Shown piece after piece: positions 1,508 through 32,409 of a stretch of 34,612 nucleotides of DNA (positions are counted from its first letter, which is position 1; every line of letters begins with the position of its first letter). The stretch is from contig JAFVSN010000001.1 in the NCBI GenBank assembly GCA_017503735.1, positions 1-34,612 of the forward strand, in the 5' to 3' direction. The notes below the pieces were generated by a model. It was given only the letters and a program-made list of their open reading frames with translations, made no database searches and was not told the DNA's origin. The stretch is from Lachnospiraceae bacterium. Its GTDB lineage: Bacteria > Bacillota > Clostridia > Lachnospirales > Lachnospiraceae. Position numbers and translations under genes: made by a program.

Positions 1508-1524
1508 GTTGGTGTCCTTCTTTG

Positions 1525-2109: not shown

Positions 2110-2144
2110 GTTTGCTCCCTCCTTTTCGGGTGGTTTCATTTACA

Positions 2145-3356: not shown

Positions 3357-3376
3357 AATGTTCTACCTACTTTCTT

Positions 3377-4096: not shown

Positions 4097-4101
4097 AATA
4101 G

Positions 4102-5334: not shown

Positions 5335-5771
5335 TAAACCTCACCTCTTTCCTCATAAACGATTGCTCTGTTAGGGCATCCCTTCACACAGGCAGGCTCT
5401 CCGCAAGAATTTTGCAGACAAAGCTCGCATTTTTGCATGATACCGCTTTTGCTTGGAGTAAGCGCACCGTAAGGACATACCAACACACAAGTCAGGCAAC
5501 CGACACATTTTTCGTTGTTTATCCTAACAACGCCGTCTGCTTTGGAGATTGCACCGGCAATACAGCTTTTTATGCAGATAGGGTCAGCGCAATGACGGCA
5601 GGAAACCGCATAAGAAATTCTCTCATTTCCCTCAATGTGGATTCTGGGATAGATAGGTTTATCTTTTAACGCTGTCGCCATATCTGCCATACCCGAGTTG
5701 GCAAAAGCACAGTTATATTCACACAAGTGACAGCCGAGACACCAGTCTTCATTTACATAGATTCGTTTCAT
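5334..5771 (-). CDS. Four-cluster 4Fe-4S ferredoxin subunit
   Basis: The 145-aa protein has four cysteine clusters: CLGCHLCEYNC (11-21), CRHCADPICIKSC (58-70), CVGCLTCVLVCP (89-100) and CELCLQNSCGEPACVKGCP (115-133). This is the HycB/DmsB-like electron-transfer pattern for up to four [4Fe-4S] clusters. The first cluster is followed by FAN in place of the usual proline. I placed the start at the ATG at 5771, just 4 bases after the FMN-subunit stop with GGGAG upstream; an upstream ATG at 5810 would overlap that gene by 35 bases with no better ribosome site. It sits between the FMN core and the FAD oxidoreductase and probably wires them together, acting as the Fe-S part of GltD. Confidence 0.88.
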   Translation of the reverse strand: MKRIYVNEDWCLGCHLCEYNCAFANSGMADMATALKDKPIYPRIHIEGNERISYAVSCRHCADPICIKSCIAGAISKADGVVRINNEKCVGCLTCVLVCPYGALTPSKSGIMQKCELCLQNSCGEPACVKGCPNRAIVYEERGEV

Positions 5772-5775
5772 ATTA

Positions 5776-7281
5776 TCACTCTCCCGCATGAGAGATACCA
5801 AGGATCTCAAGTTCTTTATTTGTCATGCCGATACCGCGAAGCATCAGGCGGTTTCCGCGAAGGGCTTCTATGGAGTTGATACCCATACCGCCCATCAGTT
5901 CTTTAATCTCATGTCGCCAAGCGTTCATCAGATTGACAAGACGCTCACTGCCTATATCCGGATTCAAACGTTTTACCAACTCCGGACGCTGTGTAGCAAT
6001 CCCCCAGTTACATTTACCGCTCTGACAGGTTCGGCAAAGATGACAACCGAGAGCCAGCAAGGCTGCGGTTGCAATATAGCAGGCATCGGCACCGAGGGCA
6101 ATTGCTTTAACGACATCTGCCGCACTGCGGATACTGCCGCCTACAACGAGAGAGACATTATTTCGGATTCCCTCATCACGGAGCCGTTGATCTACGGCAG
6201 CCAACGCGAGTTCAATCGGAATGCCGACATTATCCCGGATTCTGGTAGGGGCGGCACCGGTGCCACCACGGAAACCGTCGATTGCAATAATATCAGCACC
6301 GCTTCTGGCAATACCGCTGGCAATGGCAGCAATGTTATGAACGGCGGCAACCTTTACAATGACCGGCTTTTTATATTCGGTAGCTTCTTTCAGAGAGAAA
6401 ACAAGCTGACGAAGATCTTCAATAGAGTAAATATCGTGATGAGGTGCAGGCGAGATCGCATCCGAGCCTTCCGGAATCATTCGGGTACGGGAAACATCCC
6501 CGACAATCTTAGCACCCGGCAGATGACCGCCGATACCCGGTTTTGCACCTTGTCCCATCTTGATTTCAATCGCTGCGCCGGCTTTAAGATAGTCTTCGTG
6601 GACTCCGAAACGACCGCTTGCCACTTGGACAACGGTGTTTTCGCCGTAACAGTAGAAGTCTTCGTGCAGACCGCCTTCACCGGTGTTGTAAAGAATTCCG
6701 AGTTCGGTAGCGGCACGGGCAAGAGATGCATGTGCGTTATAACTGATGGAACCGTAGCTCATTGCCGAGAACATGACGGGCATGGAAAGTTCAATTTGCG
6801 GGGGCAGTTCACATGTTAATTTACCGTGCCCATCCCGTTGTATTTTTTCGGGTTTTTTGCCGAGGAACACACGAGTTTCCATCGGCTCACGGAGCGGGTC
6901 GATGGGTGGATTTGTTACCTGCGAGGCGTTAATCAGAGTCTTGTCCCAGTATACCGGCAGAGGATTGGGGTTACCCATAGAGGATAGAAGAACACCGCCA
7001 CTGTTTGCTTGTTTATAAATTTCCTTAATCGTGTTATTTGACCAGTTTGCATTCTCGCGGAGAGTGCAGTCGCTTTTTACGATTTTGAGTGCTCTGGTCG
7101 GACAGAGAGAGACGCAACGCTGGCAGTTGACACATTTGGTCTCGTCACTCATCATAATGCCCTTTTCGGTATGAAAGGTATGCACATCGTTTGCGCATTG
7201 TCGCTCACATACGCGGCAAGTGATACAGCGACTTTCATTACGGACCACTTCAAATTCGGGATATATAAATTCTACGCTCAT
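5776..7281 (-). CDS. FMN-binding glutamate synthase core subunit with N-terminal ferredoxin domain
   Basis: The 501-aa protein begins with two [4Fe-4S] motifs, Cys19/22/25/29 and Cys50/53/56/60. It continues with the FMN barrel of glutamate synthase (GHLPGAKIVGDVSRTR, then GSDAISPAPHHDIYS, then DGFRGGTGAAPTRI). A C-terminal cysteine group, CHLCRTCQSGKC (413-424), sits where GltB carries its Fe-S cluster. It converts 2-oxoglutarate plus amide-derived ammonia to glutamate. This is the archaeal-type layout in which the central GltB domain is a separate gene fused to a ferredoxin domain. Its ATG overlaps the stop of the glutaminase gene (ATGA), so the two are translationally coupled. Length matches the roughly 500-aa stand-alone family. 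Confidence 0.93.
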   Translation of the reverse strand: MSVEFIYPEFEVVRNESRCITCRVCERQCANDVHTFHTEKGIMMSDETKCVNCQRCVSLCPTRALKIVKSDCTLRENANWSNNTIKEIYKQANSGGVLLSSMGNPNPLPVYWDKTLINASQVTNPPIDPLREPMETRVFLGKKPEKIQRDGHGKLTCELPPQIELSMPVMFSAMSYGSISYNAHASLARAATELGILYNTGEGGLHEDFYCYGENTVVQVASGRFGVHEDYLKAGAAIEIKMGQGAKPGIGGHLPGAKIVGDVSRTRMIPEGSDAISPAPHHDIYSIEDLRQLVFSLKEATEYKKPVIVKVAAVHNIAAIASGIARSGADIIAIDGFRGGTGAAPTRIRDNVGIPIELALAAVDQRLRDEGIRNNVSLVVGGSIRSAADVVKAIALGADACYIATAALLALGCHLCRTCQSGKCNWGIATQRPELVKRLNPDIGSERLVNLMNAWRHEIKELMGGMGINSIEALRGNRLMLRGIGMTNKELEILGISHAGE

Positions 7282-8375
7282 TCGTATGCACCATCCTTTA
7301 CTTTTACAATTACCGGTTCTCCGCCTGCAGGAGCCCAGATGTTTTCAGCATTCGGTTCCATCGTGCGAATTGCCGCTTCTTCACTGGCGATAAACACCTT
7401 ATCGTCCTTCTCACCGACTACCATAGAACGAAGTTTCAGTCGATCGTTCAGCGCCATGAGACCACCGTTAAAGCCAAGTACAATGGAAAAAGGACCGGTG
7501 ATAAGTAAACTTGGGAAAAGGGTACGCAAATAGATATGTTTGTTTTTATCTTCCAAATCGGTTTTTCCTTCGATAGTACTCCAGAACGGGGCTGCGATGA
7601 CGCTGGCTGCTTCACTGAGACTCAGTCCCTGTACGCGGATTAAATAGTCCATAATATAAGTGATAACCTCAGTATCAGTCTGTAGCGTACATTTGTAACC
7701 AAACATTTCTATAAAACGGCGGTTTGCATCATAAGAGGAGATTTCTCCATTATGTACGATAGACCAATCCAGCAAAGTGAAGGGATGTGCTCCTCCCCAC
7801 CAACCGGGAGTGTTGGTAGGATAACGCCCGTGTGCTGTCCAGGAATAGCCCTCATATTCTTCTAATTTATAAAAAACACCGACATCTTCAGGAAATCCGA
7901 CAGCCTTGAATGTTCCCATGTTTTTACCGCTGGAAAAGACATATGCGCCTTTCATCTCAATGTTGATTTTCATTACGGTACGGGCAACAAATTCTTTTTC
8001 GTCCAACTGCATGGAAGCTAACATAGATTTTAAAGGAGCTACGAAATATCTCCAGATAATGGGTTCATCGGTGATTGTCGGAATCTTGCGGGTCGGAATA
8101 ATTTCCGATTTTACAATTTCAAAGCGTTCCTTTAAGAATACTTCACATTCTTTTCGGGTGGAACGGGTATCAAAGAACATATGTAATGCATAAAGTTCTT
8201 TGTATTCCGGATAAATGCCATAACCGGCAAATCCGCCGCCAAGTCCGTTGGAACGGTCATGCATCGGCTTCATGGCATTGGTGATCATCTCTCCGGACAT
8301 TCGGGTCCCTTCTTTAGAGATAACAGCAGCGATTGCACATCCGGAGGGGATACGCACTTGTCCTTCTACTTTCAT
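7278..8375 (-). CDS. Class II glutamine amidotransferase domain protein (GltB N-terminal-like)
   Basis: The 365-aa protein resembles the glutaminase domain of glutamate synthase. A probable nucleophile is Cys13 in RIPSGCAIAAVIS. It would become N-terminal only if a 12-residue leader were removed, as with GltB propeptides (inference). Other motifs are AHGRYPTNTPGWWGG, WSIVHNGEISS and LQTDTEVITY, which bind glutamine in class II amidotransferases. It releases ammonia from glutamine for the FMN subunit encoded next (ATGA overlap). AAAGGA lies about 11 bases before the ATG. It is the first gene of the leftward eight-gene operon, downstream of a sigma-A-type promoter and an ANTAR-type attenuator. 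Confidence 0.9.
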   Translation of the reverse strand: MKVEGQVRIPSGCAIAAVISKEGTRMSGEMITNAMKPMHDRSNGLGGGFAGYGIYPEYKELYALHMFFDTRSTRKECEVFLKERFEIVKSEIIPTRKIPTITDEPIIWRYFVAPLKSMLASMQLDEKEFVARTVMKINIEMKGAYVFSSGKNMGTFKAVGFPEDVGVFYKLEEYEGYSWTAHGRYPTNTPGWWGGAHPFTLLDWSIVHNGEISSYDANRRFIEMFGYKCTLQTDTEVITYIMDYLIRVQGLSLSEAASVIAAPFWSTIEGKTDLEDKNKHIYLRTLFPSLLITGPFSIVLGFNGGLMALNDRLKLRSMVVGEKDDKVFIASEEAAIRTMEPNAENIWAPAGGEPVIVKVKDGAYE

Positions 8376-8404
8376 GTGAGTTCATTCCTTTCGGGGTGAA
8401 ATAA

Positions 8405-8461
8405 TAAAAAAGGACGTTCATCTCAATGTAGAAGCATTTCTACACTGGAATGAACGCCCTT
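8405..8461 (-). terminator. Leader intrinsic terminator of the glutamate synthase operon (attenuator)
   Basis: Read on the minus strand, AGGGCGTTCAT (plus 8460-8450) pairs with ATGAACGTCCT (plus 8421-8411), enclosing a second 8-bp stem GTGTAGAA/TTCTACAT with an ATGC loop. Six U residues follow (plus 8410-8405). It lies between the promoter and the first gene, so it would stop transcription before the operon unless prevented. Its 5' arm is shared with the antiterminator hairpin. Confidence 0.85.
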
Positions 8462-8468
8462 GCTCATT
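8449..8468 (-). promoter_or_regulatory. ANTAR-type A1/G4 hexaloop antiterminator hairpin, glutamate synthase operon leader
   Basis: On the minus strand a 7-bp stem AATGAGC/GTTCATT closes the six-base loop AAGGGC, which has A at position 1 and G at position 4, the signature read by ANTAR domains. The loop and 3' arm form the 5' arm of the following terminator, so the two structures exclude each other. The hairpin begins within a few bases of the predicted transcription start. Only one hexaloop hairpin is visible; the published motif has two in tandem. Confidence 0.78.
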
Positions 8469-8475
8469 TGCCAGC

Positions 8476-8504
8476 ATTGTACTCTTTTTCTTGTGGATTG
8501 TCAA
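8476..8504 (-). promoter_or_regulatory. Sigma-A-type promoter of the glutamate synthase operon
   Basis: On the minus strand a perfect -35 TTGACA (plus 8504-8499) is followed by a 17-base spacer and the -10 TACAAT (plus 8481-8476). The expected start is about 7 bases further, near plus 8469, directly before the antiterminator hairpin. AT-rich sequence upstream may act as an UP element. Confidence 0.88.
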
Positions 8505-8507
8505 GGG

Positions 8508-8523
8508 GAATTTTTAAAAATTC
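8508..8523. repeat. 16-bp perfect palindrome between divergent promoters
   Basis: GAATTTTTAAAAATTC is a perfect inverted repeat placed 3 bases upstream of the minus-strand -35 box. It may be a regulator site or simply an AT-rich UP element whose symmetry is fortuitous. No known operator consensus is matched with confidence. Confidence 0.45.
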
Positions 8524-8593
8524 TGAAAGCTTTTGGAAAATGCAAAGTTCTGAGCGTTTTTGCCGGAAAATCAAAAAAAATTGAAAAAAGGGG

Positions 8594-8622
8594 TTGACAA
8601 TTCATTTTTGTGGGTGTACAAT
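8594..8622 (+). promoter_or_regulatory. Sigma-A-type promoter of gdhA
   Basis: Perfect -35 TTGACA (8594-8599), 17-base spacer, -10 TACAAT (8617-8622). The boxes and spacer length are identical to those of the divergent promoter. Transcription should start near 8629, a few bases before the hexaloop hairpin. Confidence 0.9.
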
Positions 8623-8631
8623 GCGGGACAG

Positions 8632-8649
8632 AAAGGCAAAGGCGTCTTT
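8632..8649 (+). promoter_or_regulatory. ANTAR-type A1/G4 hexaloop antiterminator hairpin, gdhA leader
   Basis: A 6-bp stem AAAGGC/GTCTTT (one G-U pair) closes the six-base loop AAAGGC with A at position 1 and G at position 4. The loop plus the 3' arm (8638-8649) is also the start of the terminator stem, so the two folds are exclusive. The same 18 bases occur in the glnN leader. ANTAR recognition is inferred from the loop signature. Confidence 0.8.
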
Positions 8650-8692
8650 AGTGGTTTTCGTATCCCAACCACTAGAGATGCCTTTGTTTTTT
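8637..8692 (+). terminator. Leader intrinsic terminator of gdhA (attenuator)
   Basis: A 20-bp stem pairs 8637-8656 with 8667-8686, with only two G-U wobbles and a 10-base loop, and is followed by six T residues (8687-8692). It lies after the promoter and about 35 bases before the gdhA start codon, so it acts on gdhA itself rather than ending an upstream gene. Confidence 0.92.
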
Positions 8693-8721
8693 CTATTTCA
8701 GATAAAATAAAAGGAGGATGA

Positions 8722-10062
<1,341 letters not shown>

Positions 10063-10089
10063 GTGCAGATGAAAATAAGTGGATAGTGC

Positions 10090-10107
10090 AAAGGCAAAGG
10101 CGTCTTT
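10090..10107 (+). promoter_or_regulatory. ANTAR-type A1/G4 hexaloop antiterminator hairpin, glnN leader
   Basis: The 18 bases are identical to the gdhA element: stem AAAGGC/GTCTTT, loop AAAGGC with A1 and G4. The loop and 3' arm overlap the terminator that follows. I see no convincing promoter in the 27 bases between the gdhA stop and this hairpin, so glnN may be reached only by read-through from gdhA, making this an internal attenuator. Confidence 0.77.
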
Positions 10108-10136
10108 AATGTTTCTCTCATTAAAGATGCCTTTTT
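10096..10136 (+). terminator. Intercistronic terminator/attenuator between gdhA and glnN
   Basis: A 16-bp stem pairs 10096-10111 with 10119-10134 (one G-U pair) around a 7-base loop, ending in a run of five T residues (10132-10136) that overlaps the stem base. Its 5' arm is shared with the hexaloop hairpin. It can end the gdhA transcript or, when blocked, let transcription continue into glnN, amt and asnB. Confidence 0.87.
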
Positions 10137-10172
10137 CTAATAAAAACGGGCGCAAGAAAAGGAGGATATTAT

Positions 10173-12269
10173 ATGGAAACTGTAACGAATTATTTTGGAA
10201 ACCTGGTCTTCGATGACAGAGTAATGAAAGCTACACTGTCTGCAAAGGTGTACGCCTCGCTTAAGAAGACGATTGATGAAGGAACGGAGTTGGACATCAG
10301 TGTGGCCAATGCCGTAGCAAACGCAATGAAGGATTGGGCAATTTCCAAGGGAGCTACTCATTATACGCATTGGTTCCAACCGCTTACCGGTATTACCGCA
10401 GAAAAGCATGACAGCTTTATTACTCCGTCTCCGGATGGCGGTGTGATTATGGAGTTTTCAGGAAAGGAATTGATTAAGGGTGAGCCGGATGCGTCTTCTT
10501 TCCCGTCTGGTGGATTGAGGGCGACGTTTGAGGCAAGAGGCTATACTGCGTGGGACCCGACCTCGTACGCATTTATTAAGGGAAACACCCTTTGTATTCC
10601 GACGGCGTTCTGTTCTTACGGCGGAGAAGCATTAGATAAGAAGACACCACTTCTTCGTTCTATGGAAGCACTGAACAAGCAAGCGCTTCGTATCTTGCGA
10701 TTGTTCGGAAACGATACGGTAAAGTGTGTTCGTACATCCGTTGGACCGGAGCAGGAATATTTCCTTGTAGATGCGGAGATGTATGAGAAGCGTCGTGACC
10801 TGCGCTTTACCGGTCGTACCTTATTTGGCGCAAGACCTCCGAAGGGTCAGGAAATGGATGATCATTACTTTGGTGTGATTAAGCCTAGGGTTCAGGCATA
10901 CATGAAGGAACTTAACGACGAACTGTGGAAGCTTGGTATTTTGGCCAAGACCGAACATAATGAAGTAGCCCCGGCGCAGCATGAGCTGGCACCTATCTAT
11001 ACTACGACAAACATTGCAACAGACCATAACCAGCTGACAATGGAGATTATGCAAAAGGTTGCTGCAAAGCATGGCCTGGTTTGTTTACTCCATGAAAAGC
11101 CTTTCGACGGGGTGAATGGTAGTGGTAAGCACAATAACTGGTCCATGGCAACAGATGCAGGGGTAAACCTTCTTTCTCCGGGAGAAACCCCGTACGAGAA
11201 TGCGCAATTCCTTTTGTTCCTTTGCGCTGTGATTAAGGCAGTGGATGATTATCAGGATTTGCTTCGTATTTCGGTTGCCACTGCCGGAAACGATCATCGT
11301 CTTGGAGCAAATGAAGCACCGCCTGCGGTTGTTTCCATTTTCCTTGGTGATGAATTAAATGCAGTGTTGGAAGCAATTGAAACAGGAACCCCGTACAGTG
11401 GTACCGAAAAGAAACAGATGAAGCTGGGGGTTGACGTGCTTCCGAAGTTTAACCGCGATACCACGGATCGTAACCGTACTTCACCGTTTGCGTTTACCGG
11501 TAACAAGTTCGAGTTCCGTATGCTTGGTTCCTCCAACAGTATTGCTTGTGCGAACATCATGTTAAACAGTGCGGTGGCAGAGAGCTTAAAGATCTATGCT
11601 GACCGGTTGGAACAGGCAGAGGACTTTGAGACGGCGCTCCATCAGATGATTCGAAAGACTATCAAGGATCACAAAAACATTATCTTTAACGGCAATGGGT
11701 ATGATGATTCATGGATTCGGGAGGCAACAGAAAAGAGAGGCTTACTTAACTATCGTACGACTGCAGACTGTGTACCGCACCTTCTGGATAAGAAGAATGT
11801 AGATATGTTAACCGCCCACGGTGTATTTTCGGAAGCAGAGCTTAAGTCGCGTTATGAAATCACGTTGGAGAACTACTGTAAGACCGTTGTAATTGAAGCG
11901 AACACCATGGTGGATATGGCGAAGACCGAGATTGCACCGGCAGTAGAGGCTTACGTGGCAGACGTGGCAAAAGCTGTGGCTGCAAAGAAGGCAGTGGATG
12001 CAACACTTCCGTGTACTTACGAGATGGGTCTTGTGAAGAAGCTTTCAATGTTGTGCGACCGGATTGCGATAAAAATAGAGGAACTGGAGACAATATTAAA
12101 AGAAATTCAGGAAACGGAGAATATCGGTACGGAAGCAAATGCAATTCGCGATATACTTCTTGGTAAGATGTATGAGTTACGCCTTGCGTGTGATGAGGCA
12201 GAAACCGTTACGGCAAAGAGCTATTGGCCGTTCCCTACCTATGGTGACCTGCTTTTCGGCGTAAGATAA
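10173..12269 (+). CDS. glnN: Glutamine synthetase type III
   Basis: The 698-aa protein is of the GSIII class, which is much longer than GSI and common in Bacteroidetes, cyanobacteria and Clostridia. It makes glutamine from glutamate, ammonium and ATP. Recognisable blocks are [76 protein letters not shown] and [14 protein letters not shown], which hold the metal- and substrate-binding residues. A long helical C-terminal region follows, as usual for GSIII. AAAAGGAGG sits 7 bases before the ATG. The gene lies behind an ANTAR-type attenuator and is followed after 31 bases by the ammonium transporter. This is probably the main glutamine synthetase, since the second GS-like gene at 2145-3356 has unusual active-site residues. 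Confidence 0.95.
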
Positions 12270-12300
12270 GGATAAAATGAACAGGAAAGGATGATGTGTT

Positions 12301-14016
12301 ATGACGTACAGCGCAGTTAATACAATTTGGGTACTGATCGGTGCCGCACTTGTATTCTTTATGCAGGCCGGGTTTTCCATGTGTGAAGCCGGATTTACCA
12401 GAGCAAAGAATACCGGTAATATTTTGATGAAAAACCTGATGGACTTTTGTATCGGAACACCGGCTTTCTGGTTGGTCGGTTTCGGGCTCATGTTTGGCTC
12501 CAGAACGGGGCTGTTTGGAAAATTCGACCCTTTCATTCGGGGAGATTACAGCCATATTTTACCGGCCGGGGTGCCGCTTTGGGCCTTTGCAATATTTCAG
12601 ACTGTATTTTGTGCCACCGCAGCGACCATCGTTTCCGGTGCCATGGCGGAACGAACGAAGTTCAGTGCATATTGTATTTACTCCGCAGCAATCTCCCTTA
12701 TTATCTATCCGATTTCCGGACATTGGATTTGGGGCGGTGGCTGGTTAGCGGAACTCGGTTTTCATGATTTTGCAGGTTCTACGGCTGTTCATATGGTTGG
12801 TGGTGTCTGCGCTTTAATCGGTGCAAAGATTTTAGGTCCGCGTATCGGTAAGTACGACAAGAACAGAAAGCCACGGGCAATCCTCGGTCACAACCTGACC
12901 TTTGCGGCACTCGGGGTATTCATTCTTTGGTTCTGTTGGTTCGGTTTTAACGGTGCTTCTACCGTTGGTATGGATAGCGATGTACTGGTGGAACGTGCAG
13001 GCATGGTCTTTTTTAACACAAACCTTGCGGCTGCTGTTGCCTGTTGTACAACTCTAATTGTGACCTGGATTCGTTATAAGAAGCCGGATGTTTCCATGAC
13101 ATACAATGCGGCACTTGCCGGTCTGGTAGGTATTACTGCAGGCTGTGATGCGGTTAGTCCGTTAGGTGCAGCGATTATGGGCTTGATATTCGGTGTTGTA
13201 ATTGTATTTGCTGTTGAATTTTTCGATAAGGTCGCAAAGATCGATGACCCTGTCGGTGCGATTTCCGTACATTGTGTCTGCGGTGCACTCGGTACAATTT
13301 TGACCGGATTGTTTGCAACCGGTAGTTCTACCGAAAAGGGCTTATTCTACGGTGGTGGCTTCCACTTATTTGGCATTCAGTTGTTAGGTGTTGTTACGGT
13401 AGCAGTGTATGTTGCTGTATTAATTACCATTGTGTTTTTAGTGATTAAGCATACGATCGGACTTCGTGCTGATGCGGAGGATGAGATTGCCGGACTGGAT
13501 GTTTCCGAGCATGGTTTACTCACGGCATATGCGGGATTTGCAATGCTTCCGGATACAACGACGTTAGAAGATGGAACAAATCCGATTGTGGTAACCGGTG
13601 AGGTTCCGGTGGCGGAAGCGGTTCCGGTAAAGAAAATGCCGTCCTTCGAAGAGGGTACGCCTAAGTTTACGAAGGTTGAGATTATTTGCAAGGAATCCCG
13701 ACTGGAAACATTAAAGTCGGCGATGATGAGCATTGGCATTACCAGCATGACAGTATCCCATGTACTCGGTTGCGGTGTGCAGAAGGGTAAGCCGGAATAC
13801 TATCGTGGTGTTCCGGTGGAAGCAACTCTTTTACCGAAGGTTCAAGTGGATATTGTAGTCAGCAAGGTTCCGGTTCGCAGTGTTATTGAAGCGGCGAAGA
13901 AAGTGCTTTACACCGGACATATCGGTGATGGTAAAATTTTTGTTTATGATGTGGAAAATGTTGTAAAGGTTCGTACCGGTGAAGAAGGTTACGATGCCCT
14001 ACAGGATGTTGAATAA
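12301..14016 (+). CDS. amt: Ammonium transporter (Amt) fused to a C-terminal P-II (GlnK-like) domain
   Basis: This 571-aa membrane protein starts with about 11 transmembrane segments (residues 5-390) and the pore twin histidines His164 (STAVHMVGG) and His324 (AISVHCVCG), plus HWIWGGGWL. After a linker of about 60 residues, residues 455-571 form a complete P-II domain with the T-loop GVQKGKPEYYRGVPVE and YTGHIGDGKIFVYD, which binds nucleotide. Arg502 matches the GlnK arginine that plugs AmtB. The position of the uridylylated Tyr51 of enteric GlnK is Val506, so uridylylation at that site is impossible; Tyr501 corresponds to the conserved Tyr46. The fusion places sensor and channel in one chain and stoichiometry. 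It lies 31 bases after glnN, with AAAGGATG near the start. Confidence 0.95.
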   Translation: MTYSAVNTIWVLIGAALVFFMQAGFSMCEAGFTRAKNTGNILMKNLMDFCIGTPAFWLVGFGLMFGSRTGLFGKFDPFIRGDYSHILPAGVPLWAFAIFQTVFCATAATIVSGAMAERTKFSAYCIYSAAISLIIYPISGHWIWGGGWLAELGFHDFAGSTAVHMVGGVCALIGAKILGPRIGKYDKNRKPRAILGHNLTFAALGVFILWFCWFGFNGASTVGMDSDVLVERAGMVFFNTNLAAAVACCTTLIVTWIRYKKPDVSMTYNAALAGLVGITAGCDAVSPLGAAIMGLIFGVVIVFAVEFFDKVAKIDDPVGAISVHCVCGALGTILTGLFATGSSTEKGLFYGGGFHLFGIQLLGVVTVAVYVAVLITIVFLVIKHTIGLRADAEDEIAGLDVSEHGLLTAYAGFAMLPDTTTLEDGTNPIVVTGEVPVAEAVPVKKMPSFEEGTPKFTKVEIICKESRLETLKSAMMSIGITSMTVSHVLGCGVQKGKPEYYRGVPVEATLLPKVQVDIVVSKVPVRSVIEAAKKVLYTGHIGDGKIFVYDVENVVKVRTGEEGYDALQDVE

Positions 14017-14040
14017 TCAATTCCGGAAAGGAGCGTATCT

Positions 14041-14208
14041 ATGCAAATGAAAGAAAATTGGTTCATGACTCAAGCCGACTTTAAAGATGTAACGCCCGAG
14101 ATGCTTCTCGGTATAGAGAAGCCGGATCCACTCTATGAGAAAGCTTTTCTTTCGAGGGAAGATAAAAGTACAACGGAATTTGCTCAAAATACGACAACCT
14201 GGGACTGA
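14041..14208 (+). CDS. Unrecognised 55-aa protein between amt and asnB
   Basis: The open frame runs from an ATG with a good ribosome site (AAAGGAG about 7 bases upstream) to TGA. The product is acidic and hydrophilic, with the stretch NWFMTQADFKDVTPEMLLGI and a Ser/Thr-rich tail ending TTTWD. No membrane segment, signal peptide, cysteine or known motif is seen. It begins 24 bases after the amt stop and ends 35 bases before asnB, so it should be cotranscribed with both. A role linked to asparagine synthetase or to the Amt/P-II protein is possible from position only. I do not recognise the family. Confidence 0.7.
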   Translation: MQMKENWFMTQADFKDVTPEMLLGIEKPDPLYEKAFLSREDKSTTEFAQNTTTWD

Positions 14209-14243
14209 TAAATTATTGATTTGATTAACGGAGGTAGATTTCC

Positions 14244-15827
14244 ATGTGTGCTATTATGGGTTATTGTGGCAACGGTGCCACTTTGGATGTATTTGAAAAG
14301 GGCTTTCGGGAGACTGTCTCCCGAGGCCCGGATGACAGCCGAATTATGGATACCGGGAATGGATTGCTTGGTTTTCATCGGCTTTCTATCATGGGACTGA
14401 CTCCTTCCGGAATGCAACCCTTTGAGTTGGACGGTAGTTATGTGGTATGTAATGGAGAACTCTACGGGTTTGAAAAACAAAAGGAGAGCCTGAAGCAAAA
14501 AGGGTATACATTTAAAAGCGATAGCGACTGCGAAATCTTACTCCCTCTGTATCGCGAATACGGTACTGATATGTTTGCAATGCTGGACGCTGAGTTTGCA
14601 TGCATTATCTATGACGGCGAAACGGGTGAGTTCATTGCGGCAAGAGACCCGATCGGGATCAGACCGTTGTATTACGGCTATGATAAAGCAGGCGTAATCC
14701 TGTTTGCAAGTGAAGCAAAAAACCTTGTGGGTCTTGCTGACAAGATTATGCCGTTCCCGCCGGGGCATTATTACAAGGGCGGAGAATTTGTCTGTTATTC
14801 GGATATTACACACGCAGATACCGTGTGTATGGATGATTTGGAAACGGTTTGCCACAACATTCATGATAAGCTGGTGGCAGGCGTGGAAAAGCGTTTGGTG
14901 GCGGATGCAAAGGTGGGTTTTCTGCTTTCGGGCGGTCTGGATTCCTCTCTGGTTTGTGCCATAGCAGCAAAAAAGAGCAGTGTTCCCATTAAGACCTTTG
15001 CCATCGGAATGAGTGAGGATGCAATCGACTTAAAGTATGCGAAGCAGGTGGCAAACTATATCGGCAGTGACCACAAGGAAGTTATCATTACGAAGAAGGA
15101 TGTATTAGCTTCATTAAAAACCGTCATTGCATTACTCGGAACCTTTGATATTACTACCATTCGGGCAAGCATGGGAATGTATTTGGTTTGTAAGGCAATT
15201 CATGAGCAGACCGATATCCGAGTGCTACTGACAGGTGAGATTTCGGATGAATTGTTCGGATATAAGTATACCGATTTCGCGCCGGATGCGGCGGCATTTC
15301 AGGCAGAAGCGGAGAAGAGAATCTCCGAGCTACATATGTATGATGTGCTTCGTGCGGACCGGTGTATTTCAGTAAACTCGCTGGAGGCAAGAGTGCCGTT
15401 CGGTGACCTTGACTTTGTGAAATATGTGATGTCGGTGGACCCGGAATTAAAGTTAAACAAGTATGGAAAGGGGAAATACCTGCTCCGTCATGCGTTTGAA
15501 GAGGGCGACTATTTGCCGGATGAAATATTATGGCGGGAGAAAGCTGCTTTCTCCGATGCGGTAGGACATTCCATGGTGGACTATTTGAAGGAGTATGCGG
15601 AGAACTTTTACAGTGATGAAGAGTTTGAGCATGAGCGTAAGAAATATACCCATGCGAGACCGTTCACAAAGGAGTCCTTGCTTTACCGGGAGATTTTTGA
15701 AAGCTATTATCCGGGACAAGGAGAAATGATTGCAGATTTTTGGATGCCGAACAAAGACTGGGAAGGCTGCAATGTGAGCGACCCTTCTGCGAGAGTTCTT
15801 TCAAATTACGGGGATAGCGGAAAATAA
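14244..15827 (+). CDS. asnB: Asparagine synthetase B, glutamine-hydrolysing
   Basis: AsnB converts aspartate, glutamine and ATP to asparagine and glutamate. The 527-aa protein has the N-terminal nucleophile Cys2 (MCAIMGY), RGPDD, the glutamine-site CNGELYG near 69-75 and RDPIGIRPLYYG. The synthetase domain has the pyrophosphate loop SGGLDSS at 229-235 and GEISDELFGYKY. The family is usually 500-630 aa, so it is complete. CGGAGG lies before the ATG. It is the last gene of the glnN-amt group. No clear terminator follows within the 153 bases before purC, where the next promoter begins 26 bases downstream, so some read-through into purC is possible. Confidence 0.95.
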   Translation: MCAIMGYCGNGATLDVFEKGFRETVSRGPDDSRIMDTGNGLLGFHRLSIMGLTPSGMQPFELDGSYVVCNGELYGFEKQKESLKQKGYTFKSDSDCEILLPLYREYGTDMFAMLDAEFACIIYDGETGEFIAARDPIGIRPLYYGYDKAGVILFASEAKNLVGLADKIMPFPPGHYYKGGEFVCYSDITHADTVCMDDLETVCHNIHDKLVAGVEKRLVADAKVGFLLSGGLDSSLVCAIAAKKSSVPIKTFAIGMSEDAIDLKYAKQVANYIGSDHKEVIITKKDVLASLKTVIALLGTFDITTIRASMGMYLVCKAIHEQTDIRVLLTGEISDELFGYKYTDFAPDAAAFQAEAEKRISELHMYDVLRADRCISVNSLEARVPFGDLDFVKYVMSVDPELKLNKYGKGKYLLRHAFEEGDYLPDEILWREKAAFSDAVGHSMVDYLKEYAENFYSDEEFEHERKKYTHARPFTKESLLYREIFESYYPGQGEMIADFWMPNKDWEGCNVSDPSARVLSNYGDSGK

Positions 15828-15853
15828 GAGAAAACAAAAAATTCATAGAGTAG

Positions 15854-15882
15854 TTGACAAATTGCCGAAAAAAGAGTAGAAT
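15854..15882 (+). promoter_or_regulatory. Sigma-A-type promoter of the purC operon
   Basis: Perfect -35 TTGACA (15854-15859), 17-base spacer and -10 TAGAAT (15877-15882). The predicted start is near 15889, only a few bases before the hexaloop hairpin, the same geometry as at gdhA and the glutamate synthase operon. Confidence 0.88.
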
Positions 15883-15893
15883 CTTTTCATGAA

Positions 15894-15911
15894 AAAGGCA
15901 AAGACGTCTTT
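15894..15911 (+). promoter_or_regulatory. ANTAR-type A1/G4 hexaloop antiterminator hairpin, purC operon leader
   Basis: Stem AAAGGC/GTCTTT closes the loop AAAGAC with A at position 1 and G at position 4. The stem is identical to those in the gdhA and glnN leaders and the loop differs at one base (position 5). The loop and 3' arm overlap the terminator arm. This suggests that a purine/pyrimidine/glutamine-consuming operon is under the same antiterminator as nitrogen assimilation. Confidence 0.78.
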
Positions 15912-15944
15912 GAGTTTATACTCGAAGTGTCTTTGTCTTTTTTT
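15899..15944 (+). terminator. Leader intrinsic terminator of the purC operon (attenuator)
   Basis: Outer stem CAAAGAC/GTCTTTG (15899-15905 with 15929-15935), a small GT/T internal loop, and inner stem CTTTGAGT/ACTCGAAG (15908-15915 with 15920-15927) around the loop TTAT. The stem is followed by TC and seven T residues (15938-15944). It lies between the promoter and purC, so it controls entry into the operon. Confidence 0.88.
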
Positions 15945-15980: not shown

Positions 15981-16694
15981 ATGACCAAGAGAGAACAGCT
16001 TTACGAAGGAAAAGCAAAAAAGGTGTATAAGACGGATGACCCGGAACTTCTTATCGTTTCCTATAAGGATGATGCGACGGCGTTTAACGGTCTCAAGAAA
16101 GGAACCATAGTCGGTAAGGGTGTTATCAACAACCGGATGAGTAATTTGCTTATGCAGCGAATCCAAAAGGCCGGTATTCCTACTCATTTTGTGCAGGAGT
16201 TGAGTGAGCGTGATACGTTGGTTAAAAAAGTCTCTATCGTGCCTCTAGAAGTAATTATCAGAAATATTGCTGCCGGCTCCTTCTCAAAACGGTACGGTGT
16301 CGAGGAGGGCTTTGTTTTTGAATTGCCTACCATTGAATTCTCTTATAAAAACGACGAGCTGGGTGATCCGCTTATGGATGAATATCATGCTATTGCTATG
16401 AAGTTGGCAACCAAAGAAGAGATTGAAACGATTAAAAAGTATGCATTTGGTGTCAATGAGCAGCTAAAGGCATTTTGGAAGGAATGCGGTGTCACTTTGG
16501 TGGATTTTAAGCTGGAATTCGGTAAACTTTCGGACGGCACGATTGTACTTGCCGATGAAATCAGTCCCGACACCTGCCGCCTTTGGGACAGTACGACCGG
16601 CGAGAAACTTGACAAGGACAGATTTCGCCGTGATCTTGGCGGTGTAGAAGAGGCTTATGCGGAAGTGATGAAGCGTCTCATGCAACATATATAA
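15981..16694 (+). CDS. purC: Phosphoribosylaminoimidazole-succinocarboxamide synthase (SAICAR synthase)
   Basis: PurC joins aspartate to CAIR using ATP, step 8 of IMP synthesis in the usual numbering. The 237-aa protein is the normal length for bacterial PurC. Recognisable features are YEGKAKKVYKTDD at the N-terminus (ATP-binding loop), VPLEVIIRNIAAGS near residue 90, LVDFKLEFG and the DEISPDTCRLWD block near 190. CGGAGG is upstream of the ATG. It is the first gene after the attenuator and is followed by purA after 14 bases. Confidence 0.97.
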   Translation: MTKREQLYEGKAKKVYKTDDPELLIVSYKDDATAFNGLKKGTIVGKGVINNRMSNLLMQRIQKAGIPTHFVQELSERDTLVKKVSIVPLEVIIRNIAAGSFSKRYGVEEGFVFELPTIEFSYKNDELGDPLMDEYHAIAMKLATKEEIETIKKYAFGVNEQLKAFWKECGVTLVDFKLEFGKLSDGTIVLADEISPDTCRLWDSTTGEKLDKDRFRRDLGGVEEAYAEVMKRLMQHI

Positions 16695-16708
16695 CGGAGG
16701 AAAAGAGA

Positions 16709-17983
16709 ATGGCGAATAGTGCAATTGTAGGTATCAACTGGGGTGACGAAGGAAAAGGCAGAATGGTAGATTTGCTGACCGAAGACTATGATGTGGTGGT
16801 TCGTTTTCAGGGCGGGGGAAATGCCGGACACACCGTAATTAACGAGCTTGGAAAATTTGCACTTCATTTGTTGCCTTCCGGTATTTTCAGACAGGGTGTC
16901 GTCAATATTCTCGGTAACGGTGTGGCGGTTGACCCCGAAAACCTTTGGACGGAGATGGAGGATGTAATGGCAAAAGGTGTAGAACTTACACCGGAGAATC
17001 TTAAAATCAGCGACCGCGCTTCTTTGCTGCTTCCTTGGCATCGGGATATGGATGAGCTGGAGGAACTGCGGCTTGCCGATAAAAAATACGGTTCTACGAA
17101 ACAGGGAATTGCGCCGTTTTATTCGGATAAATACGGGAAAAAGACGATTCTTGCCGGAGAGTTATTCTATCCGGAAGAACTGAAAGAGCACCTTACCGAT
17201 TTGATGGAATGGAAAAATCTTATGCTTACAAAGGTATACGGAGCACCGGGTTATACAATGGATATGTTGGAAAAATGGATTAACGGTGTTTGTGAAAAAA
17301 TCAAGCCGTATATCACCGATACCGGTGCTTTTTTGAAGGAAGCACAAGCGAGCGGTAAGAACATCCTTTTTGAAGCACAGCTTGGCTCACTCAGAGATTT
17401 GGATTATGGGATCTATCCGTATACAACATCCTCGAATACTATGGCGGCATATGCTCCGATTGGTTCGGGATTGCCGAGTGCAAAGGTAAATGATGTGATT
17501 GGTGTTGTAAAAGCCTATTCCACCTGTGTCGGGGAAGGACCGTTTGTATGCGAAATGCTCGGTGAAGAAGCAGAAAAATTGCGTGAAAGCGGCTTTGAAT
17601 ATGGAGCAAAAACGGGTAGACCACGCCGGGTAGGTCCGATTGATATTGTTGCAACGCGGTATGGTGTTGAAGTACAGGCGGCAACCGCAATTGCGCTTAC
17701 AAAACTCGATGTACTCAGTTATATGGATAGAATACCGGTATGTACCAGGTATCTGTTAAACGGGGAACAAATTGATCGATTCCCGTTTCCGACAGCATTG
17801 AAAAATGCAAAGCCGGTCATTACGTATTTTGACGGATGGAAGTGCGATATCTCAGGTGTCCGCACATGGGAGGAGCTTCCGAAAGCGGCACAGGAGTATG
17901 TGGCTTTTATAGAAGGACAAATCGGTTGTCCCATTAAGTATGTTTCCGTGGGACCTGAGCGCGACAGCATCATAATAAGATAA
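16709..17983 (+). CDS. purA: Adenylosuccinate synthase
   Basis: PurA condenses IMP with aspartate using GTP, the first committed step to AMP. The 424-aa protein has the phosphate-binding loop NWGDEGKGRMVDLL (GDEGKG at 12-17), GGGNAGHTV and the C-terminal GTP site, in a length typical of the family. The strand before the loop reads IVGINWGDEG where most PurA proteins have VVGxQWGDEG, a small variation. CGGAGG is upstream. It is followed 24 bases later by the nfnA-like gene. Confidence 0.96.
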   Translation: MANSAIVGINWGDEGKGRMVDLLTEDYDVVVRFQGGGNAGHTVINELGKFALHLLPSGIFRQGVVNILGNGVAVDPENLWTEMEDVMAKGVELTPENLKISDRASLLLPWHRDMDELEELRLADKKYGSTKQGIAPFYSDKYGKKTILAGELFYPEELKEHLTDLMEWKNLMLTKVYGAPGYTMDMLEKWINGVCEKIKPYITDTGAFLKEAQASGKNILFEAQLGSLRDLDYGIYPYTTSSNTMAAYAPIGSGLPSAKVNDVIGVVKAYSTCVGEGPFVCEMLGEEAEKLRESGFEYGAKTGRPRRVGPIDIVATRYGVEVQAATAIALTKLDVLSYMDRIPVCTRYLLNGEQIDRFPFPTALKNAKPVITYFDGWKCDISGVRTWEELPKAAQEYVAFIEGQIGCPIKYVSVGPERDSIIIR

Positions 17984-18007
17984 ATGACGGGAAGGAGTAA
18001 CAATGCA

Positions 18008-18859
18008 ATGGCATATAAGATACTAAAAAAAGCAGATTTAACTCCGCAAATCTTTTTGTTGGAGATAGAAGCTCCACTAATAGCTCGTAAAGCAGAGCCC
18101 GGACAGTTTATTGTTCTAAGAATCGATGAGTACGGAGAACGGGTTCCTTTTACCATTGCCGATTTTGACCGGGAGAAGGGTACAGTCACCGTCATTGTTC
18201 AGGTAGTAGGAAAAACTACGAAGGACTTGTCTTTGCTTTCTGCAGGAGATATGGTTTTAGATTTTGCGGGACCGCTCGGAATGCCGACGCCTCTACAGGG
18301 ATTGAAAAAGGTTGCTGTCATTGGCGGTGGTCTTGGGACGGCGATTGCTTATCCACAAGCGAAGAAACTGAAGGCACTCGGTGCTGAGGTTACGGTGATA
18401 ACCGGTTTTAGAAACAGGGACTGTATTATTCTTGAAAAAGAGATGCAGAAGGTATCGGATAAGCTCATTATTACTACAGACGACGGTTCGAACGGTGTGC
18501 AGGGCTTTGTTACAGACCGCCTACGCGAAGAACTGGAAGCAGGAGAAAGATTCGATGAGGTGATTGCCATCGGACCTTTGGTAATGATGGGAGCTGTATG
18601 TAAGCTTACGAAAGAGTATGATATTCCGGCGATAGTTTCAATGAATCCGGTTATGATTGACGGAACCGGAATGTGTGGCGGTTGCAGAGTCGTTGTCGGT
18701 GGAGAGACAAAATTTGCTTGTGTGGACGGTCCGGATTTCGACGGACATCAAATTGATTGGGATGCTGCGTTGAAACGTCAGCAGATGTTTAAAGAACATG
18801 AAAGACGTGCTTGTGAGGAAGGAACCTGCAGAATCGGAAGGAGTAATAACCATGGCTAA
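18008..18859 (+). CDS. nfnA: NfnA-like / sulfide-dihydroorotate dehydrogenase-like FAD/NAD-binding subunit
   Basis: The 283-aa protein belongs to the ferredoxin reductase-like family that includes PyrK and NfnA. It has an FAD site (RVPFTIADF), an NAD site (AVIGGGLGTAIAYP, 103-116) and a C-terminal [2Fe-2S] motif with Cys223, Cys226 and Cys238 preceded by Asp218. In NfnA the cluster is known to use three Cys and one Asp. I chose the ATG at 18008, which has GAAGGAG 10 bases upstream; an in-frame ATG at 17984 lies before that ribosome site. The following gene overlaps it by 8 bases. The pair matches NfnAB, the electron-bifurcating NADH-dependent ferredoxin:NADP+ oxidoreductase, but the second protein is also the GltD-like subunit, so a glutamate synthase role cannot be excluded. 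Confidence 0.83.
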   Translation: MAYKILKKADLTPQIFLLEIEAPLIARKAEPGQFIVLRIDEYGERVPFTIADFDREKGTVTVIVQVVGKTTKDLSLLSAGDMVLDFAGPLGMPTPLQGLKKVAVIGGGLGTAIAYPQAKKLKALGAEVTVITGFRNRDCIILEKEMQKVSDKLIITTDDGSNGVQGFVTDRLREELEAGERFDEVIAIGPLVMMGAVCKLTKEYDIPAIVSMNPVMIDGTGMCGGCRVVVGGETKFACVDGPDFDGHQIDWDAALKRQQMFKEHERRACEEGTCRIGRSNNHG

Positions 18860-20261
18860 TATGAGAGATACCAAAATTCCAATGCCGGAACAGGCTCCGT
18901 GTGTACGAAATAAAAACTTCTTAGAGGTTACCACCGGGTATACACCGGAGATGGCAATAGAGGAAGCAAAACGTTGTCTGAACTGTAAACATAAACCTTG
19001 TATGCAAGGATGCCCTGTTTCCGTTAAAATTCCTGAATTTATTGCTTTGGTGGCGGAAGGAAATTTTGAAGCGGCTTATAGCAAAATTACCGAAACCAAT
19101 GCGTTACCTGCCATATGCGGCAGAGTTTGCCCACAGGAAAGACAATGTGAATCGAAATGTGTAAGAGGAATCAAAGGAGAGGCGGTCGCAATAGGAAGAT
19201 TGGAGCGATTTGTTGCAGATTATCATTTGGCTGGCGGTACAGATGATATTTCTATACCGCAAAAGAACGGAAAAAAAGTTGCTGTTGTGGGTTCGGGACC
19301 ATCCGGACTTACCGTTGCGGGGGACCTTGCAAAACTCGGCTATGAAGTTACCGTTTATGAAGCCTTTCATACCGCAGGGGGAGTATTAATGTACGGAATT
19401 CCTGAGTTCAGACTTCCGAAGCATATTGTGCAAAAGGAGATTGAAAAGCTGAAGTTATATGGGGTTAAAATCGAAACCAATATTATCATCGGGAAGACTT
19501 TGCTTGTGGATGAACTGCTTACCGATATGGGGTATGATGCAGTGTATATCGGTTCGGGTGCAGGTCTTCCGTCATTTCTGGGAATCGATGGTGAAAGCTT
19601 AAATGGTGTATATTCTGCCAACGAATTTTTAACAAGAATTAATTTAATGAAGGGGTATCGATTCCCGGAGTACGACACGCCTGTTTATTGTGGGAAGAAT
19701 GTTGCGGTATTCGGTGGCGGTAATGTTGCTATGGATGCTGCACGCAGTGCTAAACGTATGGGCGCTGAAAATGTATATATCATTTATAGACGAAGCAAAG
19801 AAGAATTGCCGGCCCGGGCGGAGGAGGTTGCCCATGCGGAAGAGGAAGGTATAAAATTCCTGCTGTTGCAGAGTCCTACTAATTTTATCGGAGATGATAA
19901 CGGTTGGCTACAGGAGGTCGAGGTTGTTGATATGCAACTGGGCGAGACGGATCAAAGCGGTAGAAGGCATCCGATAGCAGTGGAAGGTTCCGAACATCGT
20001 ATTTCGATTGATACTGCGGTTATCGCTATCGGCCAAACACCGAATCCTCTGATTAGGAAGACAACGAGCGGTCTGGATACCGATAAACGTGGTTGTATTA
20101 TTACCGATGAACAGGGTGCTACATCAAAGCCGTTTGTTTATGCGGGCGGAGATGTTGTTACGGGAGCGGCAACTGTTATTCTTGCCATGGGTGCCGGGAA
20201 AAAGGCAGCTGCGGCAATTCACAAAGAATTACAAAGCAAGGAGAAAGAATATGACGAATAG
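18852..20261 (+). CDS. nfnB: NfnB-like / NADPH-dependent glutamate synthase small-subunit-type flavoprotein
   Basis: The 469-aa protein has two N-terminal [4Fe-4S] cysteine groups (Cys42/45/50/54 and Cys89/93/99/103), an FAD motif VAVVGSGPSGLTVAG (143-157), an NADPH motif VAVFGGGNVAMDAAR and a late FAD motif FVYAGGDVVTGAA. This is the GltD/NfnB family, usual length about 460 aa. The ATG at 18852 has GGAAGGAG upstream; an earlier in-frame ATG at 18798 lies inside the nfnA-like gene. It overlaps that gene by 8 bases and purB by 11 bases. Next to an NfnA homologue the NfnAB transhydrogenase is the best reading; it would supply NADPH to GDH or glutamate synthase. The alternative is a GltD for the split glutamate synthase. 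Confidence 0.85.
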   Translation: MANMRDTKIPMPEQAPCVRNKNFLEVTTGYTPEMAIEEAKRCLNCKHKPCMQGCPVSVKIPEFIALVAEGNFEAAYSKITETNALPAICGRVCPQERQCESKCVRGIKGEAVAIGRLERFVADYHLAGGTDDISIPQKNGKKVAVVGSGPSGLTVAGDLAKLGYEVTVYEAFHTAGGVLMYGIPEFRLPKHIVQKEIEKLKLYGVKIETNIIIGKTLLVDELLTDMGYDAVYIGSGAGLPSFLGIDGESLNGVYSANEFLTRINLMKGYRFPEYDTPVYCGKNVAVFGGGNVAMDAARSAKRMGAENVYIIYRRSKEELPARAEEVAHAEEEGIKFLLLQSPTNFIGDDNGWLQEVEVVDMQLGETDQSGRRHPIAVEGSEHRISIDTAVIAIGQTPNPLIRKTTSGLDTDKRGCIITDEQGATSKPFVYAGGDVVTGAATVILAMGAGKKAAAAIHKELQSKEKEYDE

Positions 20262-21666: not shown

Positions 21667-21683
21667 GAGAAGAGGTGAATGCG

Positions 21684-23216: not shown

Positions 23217-23241
23217 AATAATTGAAACGGAGATTCGATTT

Positions 23242-25068: not shown

Positions 25069-28115
<3,047 letters not shown>

Positions 28116-28124
28116 GGTGCCGAA

Positions 28125-32200: not shown

Positions 32201-32397
32201 TACGTGCCGGATATGTTAGTTATGTAATAAATACCCGTGCGATATTATCGGGAAAGCACTATGGTGACGGAGTTGCCATTCGGTGCTGTGCGGCACAGAA
32301 TAATATTACAATGCTGACCTCTCTTGATACAGTGAGAATGCTTCTGGATGTACTGGAGGAGGTTACATTAGGAATCTCAACAATAGATGCGAAATGA
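29215..32397 (+). CDS. carB: Carbamoyl-phosphate synthase large subunit
   Basis: The 1060-aa protein shows the internal duplication of Car[22 protein letters not shown] near the start and [20 protein letters not shown] near residue 550, each heading an ATP-grasp half. A C-terminal allosteric domain follows (about 930-1060). It makes carbamoyl phosphate from bicarbonate, ammonia and two ATP. GGAGGAGG is about 8 bases before the ATG. The 23-base overlap with carA suggests coupled synthesis of the two subunits. Length is complete. Confidence 0.97.
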
Positions 32398-32409
32398 GAG
32401 GTGAATGAT

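Follow-up and report, generated by a model that had tools for sequence, protein, structure and literature searches.

How might genes for ammonium assimilation and glutamine use, spread over several transcripts, be brought under one RNA-binding protein? The question is raised by a 34,612-nt stretch of DNA from a Lachnospiraceae bacterium (GCA_017503735.1, contig JAFVSN010000001.1, positions 1 to 34,612 of the forward strand), hereafter called the window, which belongs to an assembly of 3.08 Mb that is 94.6% complete. Four leaders in the window, before gltB, gdhA, glnN, and purC, each contain a hairpin with a six-base loop that has A at position 1 and G at position 4 (an A1/G4 hexaloop), and the same window encodes an ANTAR protein. 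The ANTAR target RNA described so far is a pair of hexaloop hairpins (PMC3369931, PMC8164766, PMC7496416), whereas each of these leaders appears to carry one. With a probability of about 0.78, we read the four leaders as ANTAR-responsive, single-hexaloop attenuators located at the transcription start, which would belong to a clostridial glutamine and nitrogen regulon under a NitR-like ANTAR protein. Binding and antitermination at the leaders are what we infer from the evidence that follows.

Leader hairpins and their terminators

The hairpins and terminators are given below together with the adjoining promoters. Bit scores are from a covariance model, R1, in which the hairpin is modeled as structure and the terminator tail as sequence, with matches accepted at E<=0.01. 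Start sites were predicted from promoter matches by setting the -10 hexamer at -12 to -7.

8449..8468, minus: hexaloop hairpin AATGAGC-AAGGGC-GTTCATT, putative antiterminator, before gltB (39.3 bits)
8410..8461, minus: terminator sharing the gltB hairpin's loop and 3' arm (-34.8 kcal/mol)
8476..8504, minus: promoter of the gltB-glnA-ANTAR-lysA operon, TTGACA-17-TACAAT (hairpin predicted from about +1)
8632..8649, plus: hexaloop hairpin AAAGGC-AAAGGC-GTCTTT before gdhA (47.4 bits)
8633..8690, plus: terminator taking in the gdhA hairpin's loop and 3' arm (-33.9 kcal/mol)
8594..8622, plus: promoter of gdhA, TTGACA-17-TACAAT (hairpin predicted from about +3)
10090..10107, plus: hexaloop hairpin AAAGGC-AAAGGC-GTCTTT before glnN (45.7 bits)
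10092..10138, plus: terminator taking in the glnN hairpin's loop and 3' arm (-22.9 kcal/mol)
15894..15911, plus: hexaloop hairpin AAAGGC-AAAGAC-GTCTTT before purC (42.2 bits)
15891..15943, plus: terminator taking in the purC hairpin's loop and most of its 3' arm (-29.4 kcal/mol)
15854..15882, plus: promoter of the purC operon, TTGACA-17-TAGAAT (hairpin predicted from about +5)

An earlier note on this DNA, made from its letters, had located the four A1/G4 hairpins, and rereading of the window sequence found them at the same coordinates with the same loops. Folded alone, the hairpins reach only -4.3 to -5.9 kcal/mol, whereas with their downstream sequence the leaders adopt a terminator fold worth -22.9 to -34.8 kcal/mol (z of -6.0 to -9.6 against dinucleotide shuffles). 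These terminator folds consume the hairpin loop and 3' arm in all four leaders, with the exception of one base of the purC 3' arm, which bears out the earlier proposal that loop and 3' arm are reused in a strong terminator. Since the terminator is far more stable, it should win unaided, and the hairpin would therefore matter only in the presence of a binder.

Promoter position and the first hairpin

By the published definition, an ANTAR target has a second hexaloop, P1, lying 5-12 nt upstream in the transcript, a feature that these elements fail to show. Between positions 7000 and 21000, the three highest-scoring promoter-like sites (11 of 12 consensus positions) lie directly next to the hairpins of gltB, gdhA, and purC. 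This region holds 27 promoter-like sites against 23.9 expected, which is near chance, so it is the score and position of these three that count. To extend the comparison, 164 distinct elements were pooled from three sets, one of which took in 52 of 53 model matches, and a promoter match was defined as 9 or more of 12 positions with the -10 hexamer ending 3-14 nt before the stem. Such a match adjoins 115 of the 164 elements, and in 101 of these 115, the -10 hexamer ends 7-12 nt before the stem, which corresponds to a hairpin start at about +1 to +6. Promoters were found beside 47/69 and 36/43 elements in two sets, compared with 4.1 and 1.9 when the upstream sequences were shuffled. In the 115 promoter-bearing elements, the position of the promoter leaves no room for P1.

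Searches for a second hairpin agree with this picture. Upstream hexaloop hairpins with any loop were not enriched over shuffled sequence, either in promoter-bearing elements (27/115 against 27.5) or in promoter-less ones (14/49 against 12.0), nor were upstream A1/G4 hexaloops (3/69 against 4.8 and 3/43 against 2.7) or a second A1/G4 hexaloop 2-20 nt downstream (3/228 against 5.2). The eutP loci chosen as a control for the P1 search proved to be mostly EutP-like GTPases outside eut operons, with a eut-like P2 in a single locus (L257). A strict search gave no A1/G4 P1 at L257, and the only P1 reported (L269) looks like chance; the search thus lacks a validated sensitivity, and the case for an absent P1 rests on promoter position. 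The best reading, as far as predicted start sites allow, is that the elements consist of a single hexaloop hairpin beginning at about the transcription start, with P1 and the linker absent, a feature that the earlier note had overlooked. Its statement that the A1/G4 hexaloop is the published ANTAR signature fits the loop, but the published signature consists of paired hairpins and there is one here.

Conservation of loop and stem

Scanning the window, plus 38 loci that surround ANTAR homologues, gave 500 overlaps between a hexaloop and a terminator, of which A1/G4 formed the most common class (82, with 46 in the next). We retained 44 strong A1/G4 elements (41 distinct), leaving out three sites judged spurious (L054 + 2829, L054 - 2153, and L072 - 13045). 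A closing C-G pair is common to these 44 elements, and their loop is mostly AANGGC. The covariation score of the 44 hairpins was 0.648, compared with 0.298 in shuffled controls, none of 500 shuffles reaching it, and pairings slid out of register gave at most 0.236. Since the 44 strong sites had been picked for pairing, two tests free of that selection were run. When sites were picked by the loop AANG[GA][CG] and a terminator only, the arms paired over at least 5 bp in 33 of 302, against a mean of 3.3 and a maximum of 10 in 1,000 arm shuffles. In gene-anchored leaders, for which no loop was specified but 5-bp pairing and a terminator were required and some loci had been fetched because they carried the element, 227 of 259 hexaloop/terminator sites were A1/G4; among loci fetched by ANTAR homology alone, the proportion was 147 of 171.

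A site was present in 55 of 61 gltB loci-leaders and 88 of 99 glnN loci-leaders, with 16 different glnN stems in the gene-anchored set. Stems as unrelated as ATGAGC/GTTCAT, GAAC/GTTC, and ACAAC/GTTGT keep the same loop. Position 3 of the loop varies, while position 2 is invariably A across the 227 folded gene-anchored elements, even in the 53 whose terminator fold leaves it unpaired, indicating that termination alone does not account for the conservation of the loop. The earlier argument from a changed stem with an unchanged fold to selection on structure is supported by the covariation score and the arm-pairing test, and the lack of covariation in orthologous leaders that would have spoken against it was not observed.

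Distribution of the element and of ANTAR genes

In its own assembly, R1 matched the four window elements only (39.3-47.4 bits); relaxing the limit to E<=5 added six matches, two of them antisense to window elements (22.7 and 17.5 bits) and the rest at 17.4 bits or less. The ANTAR gene of the window is the sole ANTAR match in the assembly, so the description of this regulon as local holds for all four strong matches and for the regulator. Searched across Lachnospiraceae, as the earlier note had suggested, R1 had matches in 125 of 200 family genomes, and at the class level in 116 of 292; ANTAR was found in 174 and 152 of the same genome sets, respectively. Within the family, the element occurs in 123/174 genomes with ANTAR and in 2/26 without it (20 listed and 6 obtained by subtraction; p 6.8e-10), and within the class, in 110/152 and 6/140, respectively (Fisher p 7e-37). 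Leaving the family of the window out of the class set gives 102/140 and 6/140. Cultured bacteria that carry the element include Agathobaculum desmolans ATCC 43058 (L235) and Neglectibacter timonensis (L219). The association persists within the 16 families that hold both states (97 genomes), where the element accompanies ANTAR in 39/57 genomes and occurs without it in 5/40 (stratified p 1.6e-7). As the genomes are related, these p-values are only a guide.

The element is also physically linked to the ANTAR gene. Among the 150 family matches listed, at least 26 (in 23 of 90 genomes) lie no more than 9 kb upstream of an ANTAR gene in the same orientation, a lower bound because part of the listed ANTAR places was used. 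Sixteen of these elements lie at 1.65-1.95 kb, and the next gene is glnA in all nine of the 16 for which it was identified. Judged by gene order, the element-glnA-ANTAR layout is what a self-regulated operon would show, and the window has it too. Plasmid carriage of ANTAR was considered as well and was dropped, with two distant matches only.

Genes downstream of the element

For 69 R1 matches in 60 loci, which were the best new places by model score and not a random draw, we sought to identify the gene that follows, using either its similarity to one of the window proteins or a GltB motif. An assignment was obtained in 54 cases: glnN 19, amt-PII 8, GltB large subunit 5, purF 4, pyrG 4, gdhA 3, gltB-like amidotransferase 3, asnB 3, glnA 2, carA 2, and dapL 1, with two of the gltB-like assignments being uncertain at 23-28% identity. 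At two further elements, where a short ORF had been picked at first, the next gene was glnN and glnA. In total, 55 of the 69 examined family elements precede genes for making, moving, or using ammonium or glutamine. The remaining next genes encode two ABC-transporter ATPases, a permease, a solute-binding protein, a lyase, and others; one case has a short ORF, and three have no ORF in the stretch. Co-occurrence with ANTAR, linkage upstream and in line with it, this downstream gene set, and covarying stems around a fixed loop together support the ANTAR regulon put forward in the earlier note, with binding as the inferred step.

Less expected next genes were seen at L113, L146, L118, L142, L138, L145, L137, and L140, and include ABC-transporter parts, a circularly permuted ATP-grasp protein, a fumarase/aspartase-type lyase, an RraA-like protein, and a PPDK_N protein. 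The elements before them may be further targets or weaker matches.

Arrangement of the elements

The gltB element forms a divergent pair with the gdhA element, with back-to-back promoters (window 8404-8691), and a divergent pair with a gdhA (or glnN) element is kept in L051, L052, L147, L148, and L151. The glnN hairpin lies 27 nt past the gdhA stop and has no adjoining promoter match, for which reasons the element at 10090 looks like an attenuator inside a gdhA-glnN transcript, as read from the sequence. A genus mate (L087) has the same order of gdhA and glnN element and, in addition, two tandem elements before gdhA (L087 2136-2277). Tandem elements, two or three in line, also occur in L147, L155, L156, L162, and L164, each with its own terminator where inspected and with the promoter usually adjoining the first copy only; 26 of 105 tabulated R1 matches are tandem copies at most 130 nt apart. 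In three places (L197 119-172, L231 3983-4032, and G095:C1:1162543-1162593), both strands of one palindrome match the model, as if the terminator were bidirectional. A riboswitch or T-box identity for the elements is not supported by Rfam: a scan of the window gave no match over its gathering score, and over 8300-10200 at E<=1, only microRNA-type families and one sRNA appeared, all below their gathering scores.

Gene content of the window

The genes that follow the four elements are arranged as follows.

206..8375, minus: operon gltB(GATase)-gltB(FMN)-4Fe4S-FAD oxidoreductase-GXGXG-glnA-ANTAR-lysA, 3' of the minus-strand element
2145..3356, minus: glnA, type I glutamine synthetase, 403 aa, ending 5 bp upstream of the ANTAR gene
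1525..2139, minus: ANTAR gene, 204 aa, with receiver-like fold, coiled coil, and ANTAR domain
8728..10062, plus: gdhA, NADP-specific glutamate dehydrogenase
10173..15827, plus: glnN (type III glutamine synthetase), amt-PII fusion, 55-aa ORF, and asnB, 3' of the glnN element
15981..34388, plus: thirteen genes purC-purA-FAD/NAD-binding oxidoreductase-gltA-purB-guaA-glmS-pyrG-purF-carA-carB-dapF-dapL, 3' of the purC element

Operon extents were read from gene spacing; in the purC-to-dapL run, for example, genes overlap or are separated by at most 25 bp. On the same basis, nearly all 26 window genes would stand under the four elements. The amt-PII fusion joins an ammonium transporter and a PII protein in a single ORF (12301-14016, plus), and the 55-aa ORF, identified by eye (14041-14208, plus), is collinear with the flanking amt-PII and asnB. 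GlnA scores 352.6 bits, below the TIGR00653 cut-off of 429.15, and its main synthetase motifs still align. The idea that this GlnA, next to ANTAR, is a dead sensor was set aside, since alignment to solved synthetases shows it to be shorter with the main motifs retained.

The ANTAR protein

The ANTAR gene announced in the earlier note is present in the window, but not at the claimed 1525-2109; the ORF runs from 1525 to 2139 on the minus strand. Its product matches the PF03861 ANTAR domain at 54.9 bits (curated cut-off 27.3), while Pfam Response_reg scores 18.7 bits, below the cut-off of 30.2. A structure model (pLDDT 88.1) has a receiver fold, a coiled coil, and the three-helix end of ANTAR, and the top full-length structure matches are Rv1626, EutV-RNA, and AmiR (1s8n, 6ww6, and 1qo0). 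Residues of relatives were taken from 46 of 80 named loci, with three dropped because of a stop before the start codon, and counts are given over 44; a further analysis (A5) took in 27 of 30 relative loci, with L030, L047, and L048 left out owing to stops or truncation. Position 69, the phospho-acceptor position, is Asn in the window protein and in 42 of 44 relatives, so that the phospho-accepting Asp of receivers is absent; other positions of the acidic pocket are not acidic either. The residues at the end of strand 1, which we take to be the place of the acidic pair of receivers, are S-A. With Asn in place of phospho-Asp and a pocket that is not acidic elsewhere, the receiver input is probably not phosphorylation or phosphotransfer, and general annotation of the window proteins showed no histidine kinase. 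Our guess would be contact with glutamine synthetase or PII, or a ligand.

At the other end of the protein, the EutV RNA-contact residues K143, K147, K149, Y164, and M172 (taken from PMC8934654) align with R157, R161, K163, H178, and M186. R157, K163, H178, and M186 are invariant in the 44 sequences, and R161 is K in 5 of them. By this alignment, the RNA-binding end looks functional, although not identical to that of EutV.

Weighing the alternatives

Several observations weigh against reading the leaders as single-hexaloop ANTAR targets. No R1 match at E<=0.01 was found in 51 of 174 family genomes and 42 of 152 class genomes with ANTAR, and eight genomes (2 of the family, 6 of the class) have an R1 match but no ANTAR match. 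A promoter match is missing beside 49 of the 164 elements, and the unsuited eutP control loci leave the P1 search with no validated sensitivity. Two EutV contacts are replaced (R168 by Glu in 44/44 and N173 by Asp in 43/44), so RNA contacts differ. The site is mostly absent from the leaders of asnB (present in 5/26 loci), glnA (present in 30/116, any loop), and amt (present in 8/27). Lastly, one hexaloop might not suffice, by analogy with two known systems: removal of P1 from Enterococcus faecalis eutP lowered induction (PMC3369931), and NasR bound P2 alone at about 12 µM compared with 1 µM for both hairpins, which is ~12-fold weaker (PMC7496416).

An unlikely alternative, nevertheless the strongest of those considered, is that these are canonical dual-hexaloop targets whose P1 escaped detection, either because transcription in fact starts further upstream or because P1 is degenerate. 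Described ANTAR targets are indeed dual (PMC3369931, PMC8164766, PMC7496416), 49 elements are without a promoter match beside them, and at the eut-like element of L257, an upstream hairpin with a non-A1 loop can be seen by eye, such that a strict search could miss a degenerate P1. However, promoters abut 115 of the 164 elements, 101 of them at 7-12 nt and far more often than in shuffled upstreams, and neither the upstream nor the downstream counts of a second hexaloop given above exceed their shuffled expectation. Slightly less probable again is a genuine antiterminator that works with a small molecule or with some RNA-binding protein other than ANTAR, which would merely travel along. The eight ANTAR-less genomes and the altered EutV contacts would fit such a partner. 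Nonetheless, the association with ANTAR persists within families, ANTAR genes lie inside the controlled operons, the loop and closing pair fit the NasR SELEX consensus of a terminal C:G pair with A1 and G4 (PMC7496416), and Rfam returned no known riboswitch; moreover, some of the ANTAR-less matches come from incomplete or contaminated assemblies (G119, 86% complete and 6% contaminated; G236, 6% contaminated).

It is least probable, to the point of being hardly credible, that the leaders are plain strong terminators close to a promoter, with the small hairpin as a by-product of the AAAGGC repeated in the terminator arm. In elements of the AAAGGC type, the 5' arm does copy the loop, the GTCTTT pairing follows in part from the inner symmetry of the terminator, and the bidirectional model matches fall on one palindrome. 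In contrast, of the 302 sites picked by loop and terminator, 33 have pairing arms compared with 3.3 on shuffling, unrelated stems retain the loop, A2 is retained where it is unpaired in the terminator, and the elements stand upstream of start codons and track ANTAR.

Proposed mechanism

As single-hexaloop ANTAR attenuators, the leaders would work as follows. By default, polymerase would start at the near-consensus promoter, and the first nucleotides would form a weak hairpin of 6-7 bp with the loop AANGGC closed by C-G. This hairpin would then refold into the much more stable terminator, and transcription would stop after roughly 50-75 nt. In the active state, the ANTAR protein, a candidate NitR orthologue encoded in one of the controlled operons, would bind the hexaloop as it leaves the polymerase and hold the loop and 3' arm, thereby blocking the terminator and allowing read-through of gltB-glnA-ANTAR, gdhA, glnN-amt-asnB, and purC-to-dapL. 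The single hexaloop would act without a recruitment hairpin, since the transcript opens with the hairpin itself. Activation when nitrogen is limiting is presumed, the direction being borrowed from NitR. A broader version, to which we would give even odds, is a Clostridia-wide attenuator in which the nascent 5' end is caught without a recruitment hairpin and the Asn pseudo-receiver reports glutamine status by protein contact, possibly with the adjacent glutamine synthetase.

Such an arrangement would be a nitrogen-control circuit with few, short parts. Many genomes of Clostridia have single hexaloops over terminators at predicted transcript starts, and these elements appear to govern much of gut-bacterial glutamine metabolism. 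They make the two-hairpin requirement of ANTAR targets directly testable, and the conserved loss of the phospho-Asp raises the question of how this group of ANTAR proteins senses nitrogen.

Comparison with known systems

In a search confined to open-access articles, without subscription journals or the Ramesh 2012 supplementary tables, no report of a single-hexaloop ANTAR attenuator starting at +1 was found. According to studies of EutV and NasR, full binding or antitermination requires both hairpins (PMC8934654, PMC7496416). The EutV structure paper also describes one hexaloop as the binding unit and expects single sites where the transcribing polymerase imposes no time limit (PMC8934654). 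The dual-hexaloop targets (eut, nasF, and amiE; about 400 in Firmicutes and Proteobacteria) share with the present elements the A1/G4 hexaloop, the C-G closing pair, the overlap with a terminator, the placement before nitrogen-metabolism genes, and the occurrence in genomes with ANTAR; ANTAR elements had in fact been predicted before genes for glutamate synthase, the ammonium transporter, and PII (PMC3369931). In contrast to those targets, the elements here have one hairpin starting at about +1, a loop narrowed to AANGGC, and neither P1 nor linker.

The protein shares its fold, a Pfam ANTAR match over the cut-off, and several RNA-contact positions with EutV, AmiR, and Rv1626, and differs from them in the Asn at the phospho-acceptor position of 42/44 sequences and in having no histidine kinase among the annotated window genes. 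The closest parallels are NitR of Clostridium saccharobutylicum, presented in a review as an ANTAR antiterminator of the GS/GOGAT (glutamine synthetase/glutamate synthase) genes (PMC6316151), and the Clo1313_2030 ANTAR cluster discussed for Clostridium thermocellum (PMC4676874), both with ANTAR encoded together with glnA and glutamate synthase genes and proposed as a GS/GOGAT antiterminator. Going by the genes named, the Clo1313_2030-2036 cluster resembles the minus-strand operon of the window (PMC4676874), to which the window adds gdhA, glnN, asnB, and the purC-to-dapL operon. Nitrogen regulons under ANTAR are thus already known in kind, and what appears to be new is the single-hexaloop form at the predicted transcription start, which departs from the two-hairpin feature of the described targets.

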